Origin: an uncultured Bacteroidales bacterium
Lineage (GTDB): Bacteria; Bacteroidota; Bacteroidia; Bacteroidales; UBA932
Direction: 5' to 3'
DNA: 64,000 nucleotides
Assembly (NCBI GenBank): GCA_947168065.1
Contig: CAMVKH010000001.1
Location: forward strand, 434,001 to 498,000
Of this stretch, positions 53,759 through 64,000 are shown piece by piece. Numbering within the stretch: position 1 is the first letter of the stretch; every line of letters begins with the position of its first letter. The position numbers were made by a program, and so were the translations under genes. The notes below the pieces were generated by a model, which was not told where the DNA came from, ran no database searches, and saw only the letters and a list, made by a program, of their open reading frames with translations.

Positions 53759-54583
53759 ATGGAGACAAAATATAATAAAACAGTTTCTTCTTCCGAAAGC
53801 GCCCTGCTAGGACTCCTGGCTGAAGAGGGAAAGCAATGGTTTACCATTGAAGAGGCATACGCCGCCTTTCCAGACAAATCGGAAGAGGCGGTGCGTTTCA
53901 TGTTGAAGCGAATGTTGGACAAGGGGCTGTTGATTAAGATTTCCAGGAAAGTTTATTGGACGGTTCCTTTTGACCAAGAGGCGGAAGACTATCTTCCAGA
54001 CTGGCATTTGATGGCCGAACCACTAGCTGGAGGCAAACACTATATAGCCTACTATTCAGCCCTTCAGATTCACGGCCTTATTACCCAGCCGTCACTGAAA
54101 GAACAGATCGTCCGTGAGCGTCATAAAACGGAGACCATTATACTGAAAGGAGTTGAATTCCAGTTCATTTACCACAACCCCAAGCATTTTTTCGGGATGA
54201 GGAAAGTATGGATAGACTCATACAACAAAGTATCCTGCTCCGATTTGGAAAAAACGATGATTGACTGCTTGTATATGCCGGCTTATGCCGGAGGCATCGT
54301 TGAGGTGGCGAAAGCGCTTTGGACGGCAAGGGAAAAACTGGACTATGGAAAACTGCTTGCTTACGCAAAACAATTTGACAGCCAGGTTGTCATCAAAAGA
54401 CTTGGATTCTTGCTGGATAAACTGGAGATCAGCACGAATATCATAGAAGAACTTCGCAGCCTACGCAGCGCGACGGTGTCACCATTGGACACGGAAGTCC
54501 CAAATGAGGGAAAGACTTCCACCAAGTGGAGTATCCGGCAGAATGTTGAGCTCGAAACAATTATCAACGCAATAAACAACTGA
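53759..54583 (+). CDS. Type IV toxin-antitoxin system antitoxin AbiEi
   Basis: 274 residues. N-terminal winged helix (about 10-70: LLGLLAEEGKQWFTIEEAYAAF, VRFMLKRMLDKGLLIKISRKVYWTV), then the AbiEi C-terminal domain (YLPDWHLMAEPLAGGKHYIAYYSALQIHGLITQ, KVSCSDLEKTMIDCLYMPAYAGGIVEVAKALWTA). It neutralises AbiEii and represses the operon. The reading frame is intact, whereas the downstream toxin is not. Four bases separate its stop from the toxin's ATG. Confidence 0.85.
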   Translation: METKYNKTVSSSESALLGLLAEEGKQWFTIEEAYAAFPDKSEEAVRFMLKRMLDKGLLIKISRKVYWTVPFDQEAEDYLPDWHLMAEPLAGGKHYIAYYSALQIHGLITQPSLKEQIVRERHKTETIILKGVEFQFIYHNPKHFFGMRKVWIDSYNKVSCSDLEKTMIDCLYMPAYAGGIVEVAKALWTAREKLDYGKLLAYAKQFDSQVVIKRLGFLLDKLEISTNIIEELRSLRSATVSPLDTEVPNEGKTSTKWSIRQNVELETIINAINN

Positions 54584-54587
54584 TATC

Positions 54588-55391
54588 ATGATACGTCCGG
54601 CAGAAATTCAGAAGAAAGCGAACAAGGAAAAAGTGAGGGACACCCAGATAGAAAAGGATTACATCCTTACATGGATTCTCACAGGCGTAGCCAATAATGA
54701 AGTCTTGTCCAAAGCTCTGGCCTTCAAAGGCGGCACGGTCCTTAAATAATTCTACTTCAAGGACTACCGCTATTCCGAGGACCTTGATTTCACCTTGGTT
54801 GATGATCGTCTTTCCAATGATGAAATCCAGAATGCTTTCAAGGAAGTGTTCCTATATGTTCGAGAAGAAGCCAACATTCCGCTCTCCATGGAGGATTTCG
54901 GCATCCACGAAACGGGAATCATCAACTTCTATATCTCCTATGTCGGTCCCCTCGGAGGGACTGGGGCCAACAAACGCGTCAAGGTTGACATCTCCCGGAC
55001 GGAATTGCTTTGCTTCAAGCTGGAGAAACGGCCAATGTTTGACGCCTATTCCGACCAAGAAGACTGTTCGGTCCAATGTTATTCTTTGGATGAGGTGATG
55101 ACGGAGAAGATGCGGTCGCTGCTTTCCAGAACCCAGCCACGTGATTACTATGACCTATGGTATTTGTCGGAAATGGAAGGTATGGAAATGACCGATCACC
55201 GATTTGAGTTCGAGTCGAAAGCCCGACACAAAGGCCTTGATCCGGATTCCCTGCAGGAGAAACTTGACGGGAAGATTAACGTTTTCAAGTCCAGATGGGA
55301 GAGTTCCATGAAGGACCAGATCGCAGAATTACCTCCCTTCGATCAGGTCCATCGCGAACTGGGCAAACACTTCCGTCATCTGTTCAAATAG
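54588..55391 (+). pseudogene. Type IV toxin AbiEii, nucleotidyltransferase, interrupted by a nonsense codon
   Basis: The ATG at 54588 opens MIRPAEIQKKANKEKVRDTQIEKDYILTWILTGV, continues to AFKGGTVLK, and stops at TAA 54747-54749. The same frame then continues FYFKDYRYSEDLDFTLVDD and on to 55391 without any frameshift. The interruption falls between the two halves of the nucleotidyltransferase active site (GGT and SEDLDF, where the D-x-D metal ligands lie). The family has Lys or Arg at this position, so a single A-to-T change (AAA to TAA) explains it. About 267 codons in total. Confidence 0.8.
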
Positions 55392-56291: not shown

Positions 56292-58613
56292 TTATTCATT
56301 TGCCACATTGATGTTCTGACGAATAGCAATATCGGAATGAACAAAGTTATGCTCTTCTAAAGCCTGAATACACTTATCGTATAAAACACCTTGCTCACGA
56401 GGGTCTCTAATCGTTATGACAACAACTGCTTCAACATTTCCTACATTTATCCCAGTACTTTTATCTGTTGCAGTCGCATCTTTATATGTGGCCTCTAAAC
56501 TCAAACACCACCTCCTGTCAGAACCAAGACAAGAATCTTTCTCAGCGGGAGTCATCTGCTGAAGATTGACATGATACTTTTTTACCGGACTATAATCTTC
56601 TCCGCAGATAATAGTCCGCTCACCATGGACCTTTTTTCTGAATGAGGGCTTGCTGTATCGACTCTTTGTCAGAACATTTTCTGGATCAATCAGTCTTTCT
56701 GAATTCTTATAAGTAGGAGGAGTGCCCGCAGCGCCAAGAGGACAAAAACGAATGCCTGTGTATGAAGTTAATGCAACTTTCACGTCGCTTTGACAATACT
56801 CGCTCTTTTCCACGCTTCTGAGGACAGGAGACGTGACAAGAGTTACAGTAACCTCACCCGTATAATAACCATCCTCTACCAAAGATGAAGGGAATGGGAT
56901 ATCTTGAATCTGAAGGTCCACACCATCTTGGAAGACTGGCTGCCATACCATGGTAAACTCGTTGGGATTATTAAATAGAATTTCATCAAGCAAAGCCGGA
57001 CGCCCAAAACCTAATTCATTGAACAAAGACTTTTCAGCGTCTGACGGTAAATGCGGATACTCTGCGCTATGAATCAAAAGTGCTTTGATAAGCAGGGGAT
57101 TGAAAGGACGGTTTAGCCTTTGCTCTAAACTGGCCGCCAAAGCAGAGACTCGAGGAGTCGAGTAGCTTGTCCCTGAATAACGATTCCCTTGATAGCCCGT
57201 ATCAGAAAAGGAATTCACACCAATATTCTGATTACCACCGGCATGGACAATATCCGGTTTAATGATTTCGGCAGGACCAGGACCGATTCGAGAGAATGGT
57301 GAGCGGGTGCCGATGAGCGCATCTCCCTCGGTCACAAACTTATGAGCAATTGAACCCACAGTCAAAGCTAATACAGAGTCAGCGCCTTGGGAAATTCTTT
57401 TCTTGTCTGGTTCCAAGGAAGAAATATTGCCGGCCGATTTACAGATAAGGATGCCATACTCTTTCTGCATACTGTCTAAGGCAATTGCAAAATCCGAAAA
57501 ATCATCATTTTCCACTTCATTTGTTGATCCTTGAGAAAGATTCCAAACATGAACATCGGGATTATTGACAATGGCAGTTTTTATGTGACCAACCATTTCT
57601 TCTTCCGACATCTGGATAACTCTATCATCAGTATTAACAATACAAGAACGAATCTTCATTGGCGATGTCCCGGTAAGTAGTTCTCCCTCCAGAGCATCGC
57701 CATAATTAATTACCCCGGCGACAGAAGTTCCATGGAGTCTTCTTATATCAGCTTCTACCAGACCTGCTGTATTCTCTTCTGCATCCAACCATGGGGCAAG
57801 ATGCGGAATTGCCTCAACACCCGAATCCAAAAGTCCAACAAGTGGATACTCCTCCCCATCTACTGGTTCTTTTACTTCGAGATTCGTATTATAAGGCTCT
57901 GGAGAAACCGTAAGTTCAAAATATGGCATCTTCTTCACTGATATAACAGCATCCATTGTGGCTAATGCTTGTATCGCATCCTGTGTGGCCCTTTCAACAG
58001 CGAATAAATGCAATCCAGGAGAGTAATCCAATGAACGGACCACAACATGGTTCTGTTCAGCAAACCTTAGCATGCTTTGCCGTGCAAGTTCGTTAAGCCG
58101 TTGGTTTTGATAATCAACAAGTTTAACCTTCAATAGTTTCCCCACAAGATCATCCTCAACATACGGATGAAAGAGTTGCAGATTATCAATAACCGCTACA
58201 CCACATTGTTTATCTTTACTGATATTGCCCGAAATATTGATGTTGTTCCTCATTAACTGAATATCCGCCTTGCTGTCAACCTTAACCAAAAGCCCCTGAT
58301 GTGATTCTTTTCCAATAACATTACGCTTTTGGCGGCTATCAAAAATTGAACGAGCATTGGCGCGGAAAGCTTTTCTCCGTGCTGCATTCTCATCCAAAGT
58401 CGCGACCAGAAGAATTGGTAAACCCTCTTCTTCGCGGGAATCAAAAATCTGTTCTGCAGCAGAAAAAGTGTCCGTCATCACCCTGACGTGTTCTGCCATC
58501 GATTCTTGAGTAGACCAATTAGGCAAGGAGTTATCTCCCATGCCTTCCTTTAAGAACAGATCTATTTCTCCTCTAGTCTCAACCAGTTGAATGGGTAAAC
58601 TTCTTTGATTCAT
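56292..58613 (-). CDS. Subtilisin-like serine protease of an IetAS-type pair
   Basis: 773 residues, no signal peptide, so cytoplasmic. Peptidase S8 domain from about residue 255: Asp in PLVGLLDSGV (D263), His in RRLHGTSVAG (H294), oxyanion Asn in SAGN (N396), Ser in YSGTSYSTPR (S483). A 250-residue N-terminal region and a 200-residue C-terminal region flank it. Its ATG overlaps the end of the ATPase gene (ATGA). ATPase followed by subtilase is the order of ietA/ietS, known from Agrobacterium as a toxin-antitoxin-like stability pair and later counted among anti-phage systems. Confidence 0.82.
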   Translation of the reverse strand: MNQRSLPIQLVETRGEIDLFLKEGMGDNSLPNWSTQESMAEHVRVMTDTFSAAEQIFDSREEEGLPILLVATLDENAARRKAFRANARSIFDSRQKRNVIGKESHQGLLVKVDSKADIQLMRNNINISGNISKDKQCGVAVIDNLQLFHPYVEDDLVGKLLKVKLVDYQNQRLNELARQSMLRFAEQNHVVVRSLDYSPGLHLFAVERATQDAIQALATMDAVISVKKMPYFELTVSPEPYNTNLEVKEPVDGEEYPLVGLLDSGVEAIPHLAPWLDAEENTAGLVEADIRRLHGTSVAGVINYGDALEGELLTGTSPMKIRSCIVNTDDRVIQMSEEEMVGHIKTAIVNNPDVHVWNLSQGSTNEVENDDFSDFAIALDSMQKEYGILICKSAGNISSLEPDKKRISQGADSVLALTVGSIAHKFVTEGDALIGTRSPFSRIGPGPAEIIKPDIVHAGGNQNIGVNSFSDTGYQGNRYSGTSYSTPRVSALAASLEQRLNRPFNPLLIKALLIHSAEYPHLPSDAEKSLFNELGFGRPALLDEILFNNPNEFTMVWQPVFQDGVDLQIQDIPFPSSLVEDGYYTGEVTVTLVTSPVLRSVEKSEYCQSDVKVALTSYTGIRFCPLGAAGTPPTYKNSERLIDPENVLTKSRYSKPSFRKKVHGERTIICGEDYSPVKKYHVNLQQMTPAEKDSCLGSDRRWCLSLEATYKDATATDKSTGINVGNVEAVVVITIRDPREQGVLYDKCIQALEEHNFVHSDIAIRQNINVANE

Positions 58614-59719
58614 TTTAATTCCTCCTTGTCGTTTGCGGCCAGGTAAGACTTAATCTTCCTCAAGCCTATTCCGGTACTCTTATTAATAGCGACTTGTGTC
58701 ATTCCATACTCACTCAAGAAATGAACATAAGCACGCTCGGTTTTATCCTGAACTTTGATTCCGTACAACCCGTCCAATAAGGTCAGTATCGGTATCTTTG
58801 AATTATTCCCTATCACGCATTTCACTTTTGCACGATCAAAGATCGTTTTTAGGTCAGATGGAGAAATGCCTTCTGCTAGGGTGGCAAATGCCATTTTTTT
58901 TGATGAATCTTCTGACATCTCCGTTGTGAAAGGCTCCGAAAAGATATCTATCATTTCTAATATTTCGTTTTTTCCGGGGAGGCCAATTTCCACCGTCTGA
59001 ACAAATCGGCGCCAAATAGCGTTATCCAATAATTCAGAATGATTAGTGGCGGCGATCATGACTGTCTCTGAGTTCATAGAGTCAATGTTCTGTAGAAGAC
59101 TATTGATGACCCTTTTCAACTCACCCAACTCGTGCTGGTCATCTCTGGCCTTTGCAATGGCATCAAACTCATCTAGGAAAAGGATACAAGGGATACTCTT
59201 GGCATAATCAAAAATCTTTCTCAGGTTTTTTGCCGTACTACCCAAAAGTGATGATACTATTCCATCCAGACGGGCCACTATTAATGGTAATCCTGTTTTC
59301 TCAGAAATATAATGAGCCACACTTGTCTTTCCGCATCCCGGACGCCCATGCAATAACAGCGTTTTCTTTATATCAACCCCTGCTAGTTCCAACTCGGACC
59401 GATGATTGACAATCTCTATAAACTCGGCTATTTTTATGTCCACATCGGGAGTAAGCACAACTTTATGGCGCTCCTCATCCGTTGGTATGATTTCCACTAT
59501 CTGTAAACGGCTATCAGTATCTAAAGGTAGCACTCGCATAGCATCTGCAATAGCAGCGTTCTTTGGGACGCCATTTTCTATTATCTGTCGAACGCACTTA
59601 GACAAAGCAATATCACCCTCACGTTCAAGCCGGTCTGCTAAACGTGTGGAATAAGCCAGGATTTTTCGCTTGTCATTCATCAAGCCACCTTCAATGATTC
59701 TAAGTATTTCGGTTTGCAT
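58610..59719 (-). CDS. AAA+ ATPase of an IetAS-type pair
   Basis: 369 residues from the chosen Met. Walker A GRPGCGKTS (about 125-133), Walker B CILFLDEFDAI (about 178-188), sensor 1 AATN (about 223-226), arginine fingers in NAIWRRFVQTVE. This is the FtsH/spastin-like classic AAA clade. The frame is open to 59785, but that Met lies upstream of the predicted -7 box at 59742-59750, so the start at 59719 (MQTEILRIIEGGL) or 59680 is more likely. In the Agrobacterium pair the ATPase acts as antitoxin to the protease. Confidence 0.8.
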   Translation of the reverse strand: MQTEILRIIEGGLMNDKRKILAYSTRLADRLEREGDIALSKCVRQIIENGVPKNAAIADAMRVLPLDTDSRLQIVEIIPTDEERHKVVLTPDVDIKIAEFIEIVNHRSELELAGVDIKKTLLLHGRPGCGKTSVAHYISEKTGLPLIVARLDGIVSSLLGSTAKNLRKIFDYAKSIPCILFLDEFDAIAKARDDQHELGELKRVINSLLQNIDSMNSETVMIAATNHSELLDNAIWRRFVQTVEIGLPGKNEILEMIDIFSEPFTTEMSEDSSKKMAFATLAEGISPSDLKTIFDRAKVKCVIGNNSKIPILTLLDGLYGIKVQDKTERAYVHFLSEYGMTQVAINKSTGIGLRKIKSYLAANDKEELK

Positions 59720-59741
59720 AACGAGCGTTTCTTTAGTTTGG

Positions 59742-59750
59742 ACAAAGATA
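59742..59750 (-). promoter_or_regulatory. Promoter -7 box of the ietAS-type operon
   Basis: Minus strand TATCTTTGT, exact match, with a 22-base gap to the ATG at 59719. No TTG at the -33 position; activation or repression through the nearby repeats is possible. Confidence 0.5.
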
Positions 59751-59794
59751 GTAATAAGATTTGTTTTGCGTTCTGTATTTTGCAAAATCTGTAC

Positions 59795-60074: not shown

Positions 60075-60083
60075 TAACTTTGT
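60075..60083 (+). promoter_or_regulatory. Promoter -7 box of the methyltransferase operon
   Basis: TAACTTTGT, exact match, 30 bases before the ATG at 60114. No good -33. Confidence 0.5.
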
Positions 60084-60113: not shown

Positions 60114-61451
60114 ATGGGATTGAAATTCATAGATCTGTTTGCCGGTCTTGGTGGATTCCATCTCGCGCTCCAGAAACTGGGGCATGAGTGTGTATTTGCC
60201 AGTGAATTGAAAGACGATCTCCAGCAGTTGTATGAAATCAACTTCGGTGGCGGCGTCATTCACGGCGATATACTCTCTTTCGAACCGAAAGATATTCCGG
60301 CTCACGATATACTGTGCGCCGGTTTCCCTTGCCAACCGTTCAGCCAAGCCGGTAAACGTGAAGGGTTCAACGATTCCAAGGCTCGTGGGAACTTCTTCTT
60401 TACCATCTGCGCCATAATTAAGTACCATCGCCCCAAATATGTTCTTCTAGAAAACGTGTCCAACTTAAACGGACACGATGGCGGTGATACGATGCGTGTT
60501 ATCCTCCGGGAGCTGGACAAATTGGAATACGATGTGCCGACACCAGAGATTCTTTCCCCGCATCAATTCGGAATCCCTCAGCACCGCCGGAGGGTGTATA
60601 TTGTTGCAGCCGACCGTCGTCAAGGCGGCCTTGGTGATTTCAAATATCCAAAGCCGTTAAAGAAGAAGACCCACATCAGGACAGTCCTCGACGAATCAAG
60701 CACACAGTATATGCACCTGAAAGTTGACACTCGTTATCAGTTGGAGGTCTGGCAAGAGTTTCTGGACCTTACTCAGGAGCACGAAGGCAAGATTCCGCGT
60801 TTTCCGATATGGGCTATGGAATTCGGCGCTGATTATCCCATATCTCCTGCACCAGCCTTCAATACCGCAGACAATCTGCTTGGCAGGCACGGCAAATTGG
60901 GCCGTAGAATAGAGGGATGGAATCTTGAAGACTGCCTTGCTCAGTTGCCTGTGTACGTAAGGACGGCAACAGCCGAAGAGTTCCCCAAGTGGAAGATTCG
61001 CTATATTCAGGAAAACCGCGCGTTTTATGAACGGAACAGGGAATGGCTTGATGTCTGGCTCCGGAAAGTCCAGCACTTCGAGAATAGCCACCTTAAACTG
61101 GAATGGAATTGCGGCCCTAAGGCGACTACGACGATGGATGACAAAATCATCCAGTTCCGAGCTTCCGGTATCCGTGTCAAACTCCCGAATTTCGCCCCGG
61201 CTCTGAATCTTGTTGGTACCCAAGTCCCGATATGCCCCTGGATCAATCTTCCTCCTGAGACATTGGCCGAAGGTGAACCAGCCAAAGGTCGCTATATGAC
61301 AATGCGCGAAGCTGCGGCTCTACAGTGTATGCAAGACCTGAAATTTGGAGAAGGATCGTTCCAACTCACCCAATCGAGAGTCTATGAAGCACTTGGAAAC
61401 GCCGTGAACGTGGATGTGGTGTACAGAATCGCTAAAAACCTGATCAAGTAA
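60114..61451 (+). CDS. DNA cytosine-C5 methyltransferase
   Basis: 445 residues. Motif I FIDLFAGLGGFHLAL (5-19), catalytic Pro-Cys motif IV AGFPCQPFSQAGKREGF (C73), motif VI LLENV (E113), motif VIII QHRRRVYIV, and motifs IX/X at the C-terminus (MREAAALQCM, YEALGNAVNVDVVYRIAKNL). The target-recognition region lies at about 190-360; the recognised site cannot be read from the sequence. First gene of methyltransferase-GHKL ATPase-Z1 helicase, so probably the modification part of an unusual restriction system. Confidence 0.93.
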   Translation: MGLKFIDLFAGLGGFHLALQKLGHECVFASELKDDLQQLYEINFGGGVIHGDILSFEPKDIPAHDILCAGFPCQPFSQAGKREGFNDSKARGNFFFTICAIIKYHRPKYVLLENVSNLNGHDGGDTMRVILRELDKLEYDVPTPEILSPHQFGIPQHRRRVYIVAADRRQGGLGDFKYPKPLKKKTHIRTVLDESSTQYMHLKVDTRYQLEVWQEFLDLTQEHEGKIPRFPIWAMEFGADYPISPAPAFNTADNLLGRHGKLGRRIEGWNLEDCLAQLPVYVRTATAEEFPKWKIRYIQENRAFYERNREWLDVWLRKVQHFENSHLKLEWNCGPKATTTMDDKIIQFRASGIRVKLPNFAPALNLVGTQVPICPWINLPPETLAEGEPAKGRYMTMREAAALQCMQDLKFGEGSFQLTQSRVYEALGNAVNVDVVYRIAKNLIK

Positions 61452-61452
61452 G

Positions 61453-63003
61453 ATGAGCGATGTTATCATAGACAAAGTAAGCGTCAGAATCGGTTCCCAG
61501 ATGTATGGGCGCTTCGAGGACCTTCCCAACACGGTGCCTCACGTCCTCGCTGAGTTCGTTGACAATGCCCTGCAGTCCTTCCGGGATAGCAAGGAGGCTC
61601 TGCTGGCATTAGACCCCAACTACAAACTACGTGTGGTTATTCGTATCCTCTGGGACGAAACCGAGACGAAAATGTCCCAGCGCAAGGCGACTCAGTTCAT
61701 GATTGAGGATAACGCCGGCGGTATTGCTGCCAGTCGATTCGTAAACGCCTTTGAGCCAGCAAATGCCCCGGATGACAACACGGGGTTGAATGAATTCGGC
61801 ATGGGGCTTAAGACCGCTGCCTGCTGGCTTGGCAATAACTGGATCGTTCATACTAAAGCCCTGGGCGAAGGAGTCTCCCGCATCGTCCGCTTTGACCAGA
61901 ATGTCGTCACCAAGAATAATCTTGAGGAAGTCGATGTCAAGACCGAGCCAGCGAAACCGGAAGAGCACTTCACAAAGATTGAGATAAGCGCTCCGACTAA
62001 GAATATCCCCACAGAAAAGAGCCTTCAGAAGATTAAGACCGAGTTGGCCAGCATCTACAGGAACTCGCTCCGTAATCAAGAAATGGATCTCTATGTCAAT
62101 AATGAGCCGCTTGAATTCACGGAGTACGCCATCTTGAATGCACCTTATTACAAGGATATGGAGGGGCCGTCAAAACTGTGGAAGAAAGACATTGACTTCC
62201 AGTTTGGCTCCTACAAAGCAAAGGGCTTTATCGGTATTCTCAAAGAACTCAAGAGCACTCAGAATGGCCTTGTCCTTTCACGTCGTGGCCGCGTCATCAT
62301 AGGCGCCGAAGAAGATGGGCGTTATTTCCCCAAAAGCATCTTTGGCTCCTCTCCTGGTACATTCCGCTTTAAGCGTATCTTTGGCGAACTGGAACTGGAA
62401 GGCTTTGCCGTCTCGTTCAACAAGAATGACATCCAGGACAAAGAGAACTTGGAAATGCTTATGGAGGCTCTTCGTGATGAACTCCGTGATAAGGATTCCG
62501 ATATTCTTGCCCAGGCCGACAATTACAGAGCAGACAATACTGCGCGCCTGGTCAAAAAGATTGTTTCACGCCACGATGAAGCACCCAAGACAAAGCGTAC
62601 GCCGGTTTCCATTGACACGAAGCCCATCGAGGAGAAAGCCAAGGTTGCAGAAATACAGCCGGTTATTCCGGAGCCCGTGCCCGAGGAAAACATCATCAAC
62701 GAGTTCAAGCAGCCGGACTTCTACGATATCAACGGCAAATTGCACCGTATGATCGTCAAATTTATCGATGAAGGCTCTGACCTTTGCTGGCTGGGTGTAG
62801 CCAAGGATGACCCCGATGCCATCGTCTGCAACATCAACGTCAAGCACGATTTCTTCAAGGTATTTGGCGAGCCTACAGATCCTGTCATCGCCTTGCTTAA
62901 GACTCTTGCAGTAGCACGATATACGACCGAAGCCGTTAATAACAAAACGGCGATGGCCATGATGGACTTTTTCAATGAATACATAAAGAAGACCAAGGTA
63001 TAG
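61453..63003 (+). CDS. MORC/MutL-like GHKL ATPase
   Basis: 516 residues. Bergerat ATP site: N box HVLAEFVDNALQSF (E34, N38), G1 box MIEDNAGGIAASRF (about 80-94), G2 box GLNEFGMGLKTAACWLG (about 114-130). An S5-like domain follows (VLSRRGRVIIGAEEDGRYFP). The C-terminal third is helical and charged. MORC-type GHKL ATPases in prokaryotic restriction contexts were predicted by comparative genomics (Iyer, Abhiman and Aravind, 2008). Starts 1 base after the methyltransferase stop. Confidence 0.85.
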   Translation: MSDVIIDKVSVRIGSQMYGRFEDLPNTVPHVLAEFVDNALQSFRDSKEALLALDPNYKLRVVIRILWDETETKMSQRKATQFMIEDNAGGIAASRFVNAFEPANAPDDNTGLNEFGMGLKTAACWLGNNWIVHTKALGEGVSRIVRFDQNVVTKNNLEEVDVKTEPAKPEEHFTKIEISAPTKNIPTEKSLQKIKTELASIYRNSLRNQEMDLYVNNEPLEFTEYAILNAPYYKDMEGPSKLWKKDIDFQFGSYKAKGFIGILKELKSTQNGLVLSRRGRVIIGAEEDGRYFPKSIFGSSPGTFRFKRIFGELELEGFAVSFNKNDIQDKENLEMLMEALRDELRDKDSDILAQADNYRADNTARLVKKIVSRHDEAPKTKRTPVSIDTKPIEEKAKVAEIQPVIPEPVPEENIINEFKQPDFYDINGKLHRMIVKFIDEGSDLCWLGVAKDDPDAIVCNINVKHDFFKVFGEPTDPVIALLKTLAVARYTTEAVNNKTAMAMMDFFNEYIKKTKV

Positions 63004-63004
63004 G

Positions 63005-64000
63005 ATGGAGCAAATCATTGTAAACAAGGGCGTAAAGACCGATAACGCAAAGAAGAACGTCTTGCAGGAAGTTACCTGCGGGGAGTTCTTCGACAAGTTT
63101 ATCAGGTATATCCGCCGCTCCGAGAGCAACCCGAAAGGCCTTTCCAATCCGGCCATAGCAACCTTCCGTGAGGAGTCTTGCGATGTTCTTGCGCACTGTA
63201 ACCCTCATGATGCTGTAACCAATTCCGAGACCACCCACCTCGCCGTAGGTTACGTACAGAGCGGTAAAACGATGTCATTCACGGGTGTTACTGCTCTTGC
63301 AAAAGACAATGGCTATCGCGTTATCATTTATCTGGCCGGCACCAAGAACAACCTGCTTGATCAGACATCCAAGCGCCTCCGTAAAGATCTTATCGGGAAA
63401 AATGGAGCCAACAATGACTACTACAAGATCCACCCGAATCCTACCTTGGCTGATCTTGATGACATCATCGGCAATCTTGAATCCATCGAAAAGCCGATTG
63501 TTCTCATCCCAATTCTCAAACACTACGAACACATCCATAAGGTTCGCCAGATAGTCAATAACTCCGAGTTCAAAGAACTTATGGCGAATGAGACGGTCAT
63601 CATTATTGACGATGAGGCTGACCAGGCATCCCTGAATAGCTACGGTCGCCGTAACAGCAAATACGAGGAAGATTCCAAATCTCGCACCTACGATGCTATT
63701 TTGAAACTGCGTGCTGACCTTCCTGGCAATACGTACATCCAATACACCGCTACGCCACAGGCCAACATTCTCATCAGTATGCAGGATCTACTCTCTCCAA
63801 AGAGTCACACGCTGCTGACCCCCGGTGAGGGTTATGTAGGAGGTAAACTTTTCTTCGGTAAGGGCGATAACGGAGATCTGTATGATGGTGAACTTATCGT
63901 GGAGATTCCTGAGAAAGAAGTCTTTCACAAGAAATACAATCCTCTCACGGAAATGCCCAAATCGCTCCGTGATGCCCTGATGCTCCATATTTTGGCCGTG
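63005..64000 (+). CDS. Z1 domain-containing helicase-like protein (3' end outside window)
   Basis: 332 residues visible, no stop before the window edge. Helicase motif I LAVGYVQSGKTMSFTG (about 80-95), motif II VIIIDDEADQAS (D203-E204-A205-D206), motif III-like IQYTATPQANILIS. The long spacing between motifs I and II fits the Z1 superfamily of nuclease-associated ATPases. It starts 1 base after the ATPase gene. In related loci a restriction endonuclease gene tends to follow; it would lie beyond 64,000. Confidence 0.87.
   Translation, partial: MEQIIVNKGVKTDNAKKNVLQEVTCGEFFDKFIRYIRRSESNPKGLSNPAIATFREESCDVLAHCNPHDAVTNSETTHLAVGYVQSGKTMSFTGVTALAKDNGYRVIIYLAGTKNNLLDQTSKRLRKDLIGKNGANNDYYKIHPNPTLADLDDIIGNLESIEKPIVLIPILKHYEHIHKVRQIVNNSEFKELMANETVIIIDDEADQASLNSYGRRNSKYEEDSKSRTYDAILKLRADLPGNTYIQYTATPQANILISMQDLLSPKSHTLLTPGEGYVGGKLFFGKGDNGDLYDGELIVEIPEKEVFHKKYNPLTEMPKSLRDALMLHILAV

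Follow-up and report, generated by a model that had tools for sequence, protein, structure and literature searches.

The five-gene cluster described here starts near the end of a 64,000-nucleotide stretch of DNA (the window) from an uncultured Bacteroidales bacterium (UBA932; GCA_947168065.1, contig CAMVKH010000001.1, 434,001-498,000 of the forward strand). It encodes a DNA (cytosine-5) methyltransferase (DCM), a MORC-type GHKL ATPase, a helicase, a DUF4420 protein and a fifth protein, MTaX1. The cluster is a probable anti-invader system of a type predicted in 2008, with a putative restriction function, and is complete here including the predicted DNA-cutting enzyme. The extra, modular fifth protein may check whether DNA bears the host's own chemical marks. 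In a bolder reading, to which we give a probability of roughly 0.3, this subunit of a MORC-ATPase restriction system would use tandem SeqA-like modules to sense how the target is methylated, and its swappable tails would set the mark or sequence that is read.

The core operon

The original prediction, made from the window, had identified a C5 cytosine methyltransferase, a GHKL ATPase with N, G1 and G2 boxes and a Z1 helicase-like protein, and had read the three genes as the core of a restriction-type system. The gene assignments were confirmed by profile matches (Table 1; PF10593, 111 bits, for the helicase) and alignments, and the reading is supported. Residues C73, E113, V115, R158, R160, G428 and N429 of DCM were present in 72/72 alignment rows (72 kept out of 81), and the checked N, G1 and G2 residues of the ATPase were conserved in 79/79 rows (79 kept out of 81) with one exception, A88G. 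The cluster matches the third MORC operon type described by Iyer, Abhiman and Aravind in 2008 (PMC2292703), sharing the MORC protein, the superfamily II (SFII) helicase and the neighbour with a restriction-endonuclease (RE) fold. That paper characterizes MORC proteins by GHKL ATP-binding motifs and by GhXhhpXXRhl in the S5-fold domain C-terminal to GHKL. GLVLSRRGRVI of the window protein agrees with this motif at 10 of 11 positions, with a serine at one hydrophobic position; the motif was complete (all 11 positions) in 32 of 37 aligned proteins, not including the window protein. In the helicase, DTIQQRCRFFG follows the C-terminal-domain motif DThhQXuRhFG at about 9 of 11 positions, as judged by eye. 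The adjacent RE-fold gene, that of DUF4420, carries E-D-ExK, as the third operon type requires. Parts 1-2 of the 2008 paper mention no fifth protein built of recombinase-like and SeqA-like modules in this operon type, and its Figure 2 legend names X1-X3 only as uncharacterised domains.

DCM was tightly linked in 76 of 80 related loci, and it evolves more slowly than any other gene of the cluster (93% identical to its L016 counterpart, versus 61% for MORC). Both properties fit a modification enzyme matched to a restriction partner. They also speak against a type IV-like restriction system attacking foreign-methylated DNA, with DCM merely protective or separate. Such a system, which would agree with the proposed reader module and with the fusion of GmrSD_N to MTaX1 in L102, appears improbable. 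The sequence TAACTTTG, 31 bases upstream of the DCM start, matches the Bacteroidetes -7 promoter motif TAnnTTTG; no convincing -33 element was seen by eye.

Two further known systems were compared with the cluster. MZA is an anti-phage system reportedly described by Gao et al. in 2020. Membership calls for MzaB, MzaC and MzaD matches above the NCBIfam/PADLOC equivalog cut-offs; the window scored far under those cut-offs of 1500, 420 and 850 (121 vs 1500; 25.7 vs 420), and its MORC protein gave no MzaB match. MZA has an AIPR gene where MTaX1 stands here; no AIPR was found by Pfam in eight scanned proteins, six of which form the run from DCM to an AbiGi-like gene. CglI/NgoAVII restriction-modification is presented in PMC4267653 as a three-gene system whose nuclease is a PLD-B3 protein; MORC ATPase, DUF4420 and MTaX1 proteins do not figure in it.

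The modular fifth protein

Of the 80 loci, 18 had the MTaX1 gene directly 3' of DUF4420, and in one further locus, L025, the DUF4420 gene that precedes it is interrupted; L013 could not be scored. Its modules were mapped with iterated profiles seeded with the window's own protein, on a small set for which E-values are rough. A head made up of MT and H was common to 22/22 mapped copies; the tails differed (Table 1). The longest protein, of 958 amino acids, has about 340 extra, unassigned residues beyond its second C module. SAM modules gave weak but repeated matches to tyrosine-recombinase core-binding families, and they look DNA-binding. When the L014 protein was modelled with AlphaFold2, they came out helical; domain placement in this model is unreliable (18 sequences; mean predicted local distance difference test score 80.4, predicted template modelling score 0.33).

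In scans with Pfam, PADLOC and NCBIfam, neither a nuclease nor another toxin domain was detected in the MTaX1 protein. This result and the apparent DNA binding of the SAM modules argue against the alternative that the fifth gene, occupying the AIPR slot of MZA-like operons, encodes an effector or regulator, an abortive-infection component, and not a reader. MTaX1 was also found beyond this system, in 4 other genomes among 395; apart from a copy in pieces (L103), it forms there the N-terminal part of proteins with their own HNH or GmrSD domain, which again makes an effector unlikely. In L101 the HNH portion of the protein resembles the TagI restriction endonuclease (PDB, E 0.00096). MTaX1 thus behaves as a non-catalytic N-terminus in restriction-type proteins, and in the present system the protein has no nuclease domain that can be recognised.

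C modules and SeqA

The SeqA C-terminal domain was matched by 4 of 19 C modules (Pfam, best E 0.013); seven families were matched at E <=1, each non-SeqA family by one module only. SeqA made up the top four of ten PDB matches listed for the C-module profile (E 0.24-0.27, not significant alone), with annexins next (E 0.42). When the profile was aligned with one built from six SeqA genes, hhalign gave a probability of 84.5-87.8% (E 3e-6 to 7e-6, about 30 residues). The score of 35-38 was not reached by any of 200 column shuffles (best 22.4), nor by any of 53 windows scored from other families (at most 17.8). This comparison is not an independent test: SeqA was picked after the Pfam and PDB matches, from about 25,000 families, and the resemblance to its reading loop is for that reason only suggestive.

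The likeness covers the loop region, T-x-x-x-T-x-x-K, where a helix is predicted to begin in the C modules. Equivalents of SeqA T149, T153 and K156 were invariant in 21/21 C modules, and in the L014 model the loop lies between strand and helix in both modules (614-617, 622-636; 730-732, 739-753). Two other positions vary: N150 is replaced in about half of the 21 (N 10, C 6, H 2, L, R and G 1 each) and N152 in nearly all (D 9, S 8, P, G, T and N 1 each). According to PMC6225831, these residues of SeqA contact GATC. Since they vary, reading of GATC itself is not expected; a constant scaffold with changing reading positions would be the pattern of readers with different specificity.

The fifth gene could instead encode a specificity subunit that recognizes sequence only and is unrelated to methylation, the SeqA resemblance being a short chance motif. 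The shortness of the match, the variable N150 and N152 equivalents and the generic DNA binding of recombinase-like modules make this quite plausible, although the shuffle and other-family controls, the three invariant residues and the position of one C-module protein near an annotated N-6 DNA methylase keep it short of even odds. That protein is one of three found outside the system: two of 209 amino acids, in L145 (after two large open reading frames) and L154, and a plasmid protein near annotated SNF2-related protein, N-6 DNA methylase and TIR protein. Paired large open reading frames (about 1,100 amino acids each, alike by eye) precede the C-module protein in L145 and the MTaX1-HNH protein in L104, as if the two were interchangeable. 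A match in G363 (E 9e-4), with internal stops and not within a called open reading frame, is probably due to chance.

Neighbouring genes and wider meaning

The IetA/IetS pair is divergent to the restriction operon, and the AbiEi-like and AbiEii-type genes are probably a type IV toxin-antitoxin pair. No relative of the AbiGi-like gene was found among the 80 related loci.

Table 1. Features of the window and of related loci
Feature	Position or locus	Strand	Remarks
DCM, modification enzyme, 445 amino acids	window 60114-61451	+	PF00145 234 bits; TIGR00675 231 bits
MORC-type GHKL ATPase, 516 amino acids	window 61453-63003	+	PF13589 47 bits
TAACTTTG	window 60075-60082	+
IetA/IetS anti-phage pair	window 56292-59785	-	PADLOC 414 and 792 bits, very strong
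AbiEii-type nucleotidyltransferase gene behind AbiEi-like gene	window 53759-55391	+	76.6 bits; 17.1 bits (under cut-off)
AbiGi-like gene	L002:6695-7555	+	76 bases 3' of MTaX1 gene
Longest MTaX1 protein	L019:14854-17730
MT-SAM-SAM-H-C-C	window, L014-L017
MT-SAM-H-C	L018, L021, L022
MT-SAM-H-C-C	L019, L020
MT-SAM-SAM-H-C	L023
MT-H-SAM-C	L028, L029
MT-H-SAM-SAM-C	L026, L027
Bare MT-H	L024, L025, L030, L031, L044, both G403 copies
MTaX1-HNH	L101		adjoins N6/N4 methyltransferase (confirmed by Pfam)
MTaX1-GmrSD_N	L102
MTaX1 copy fragmented into pieces	L103
MTaX1-HNH	L104

If tandem SeqA-like modules do read methylation, the system would be a bacterial parallel to the eukaryotic MORC proteins that respond to DNA methylation.
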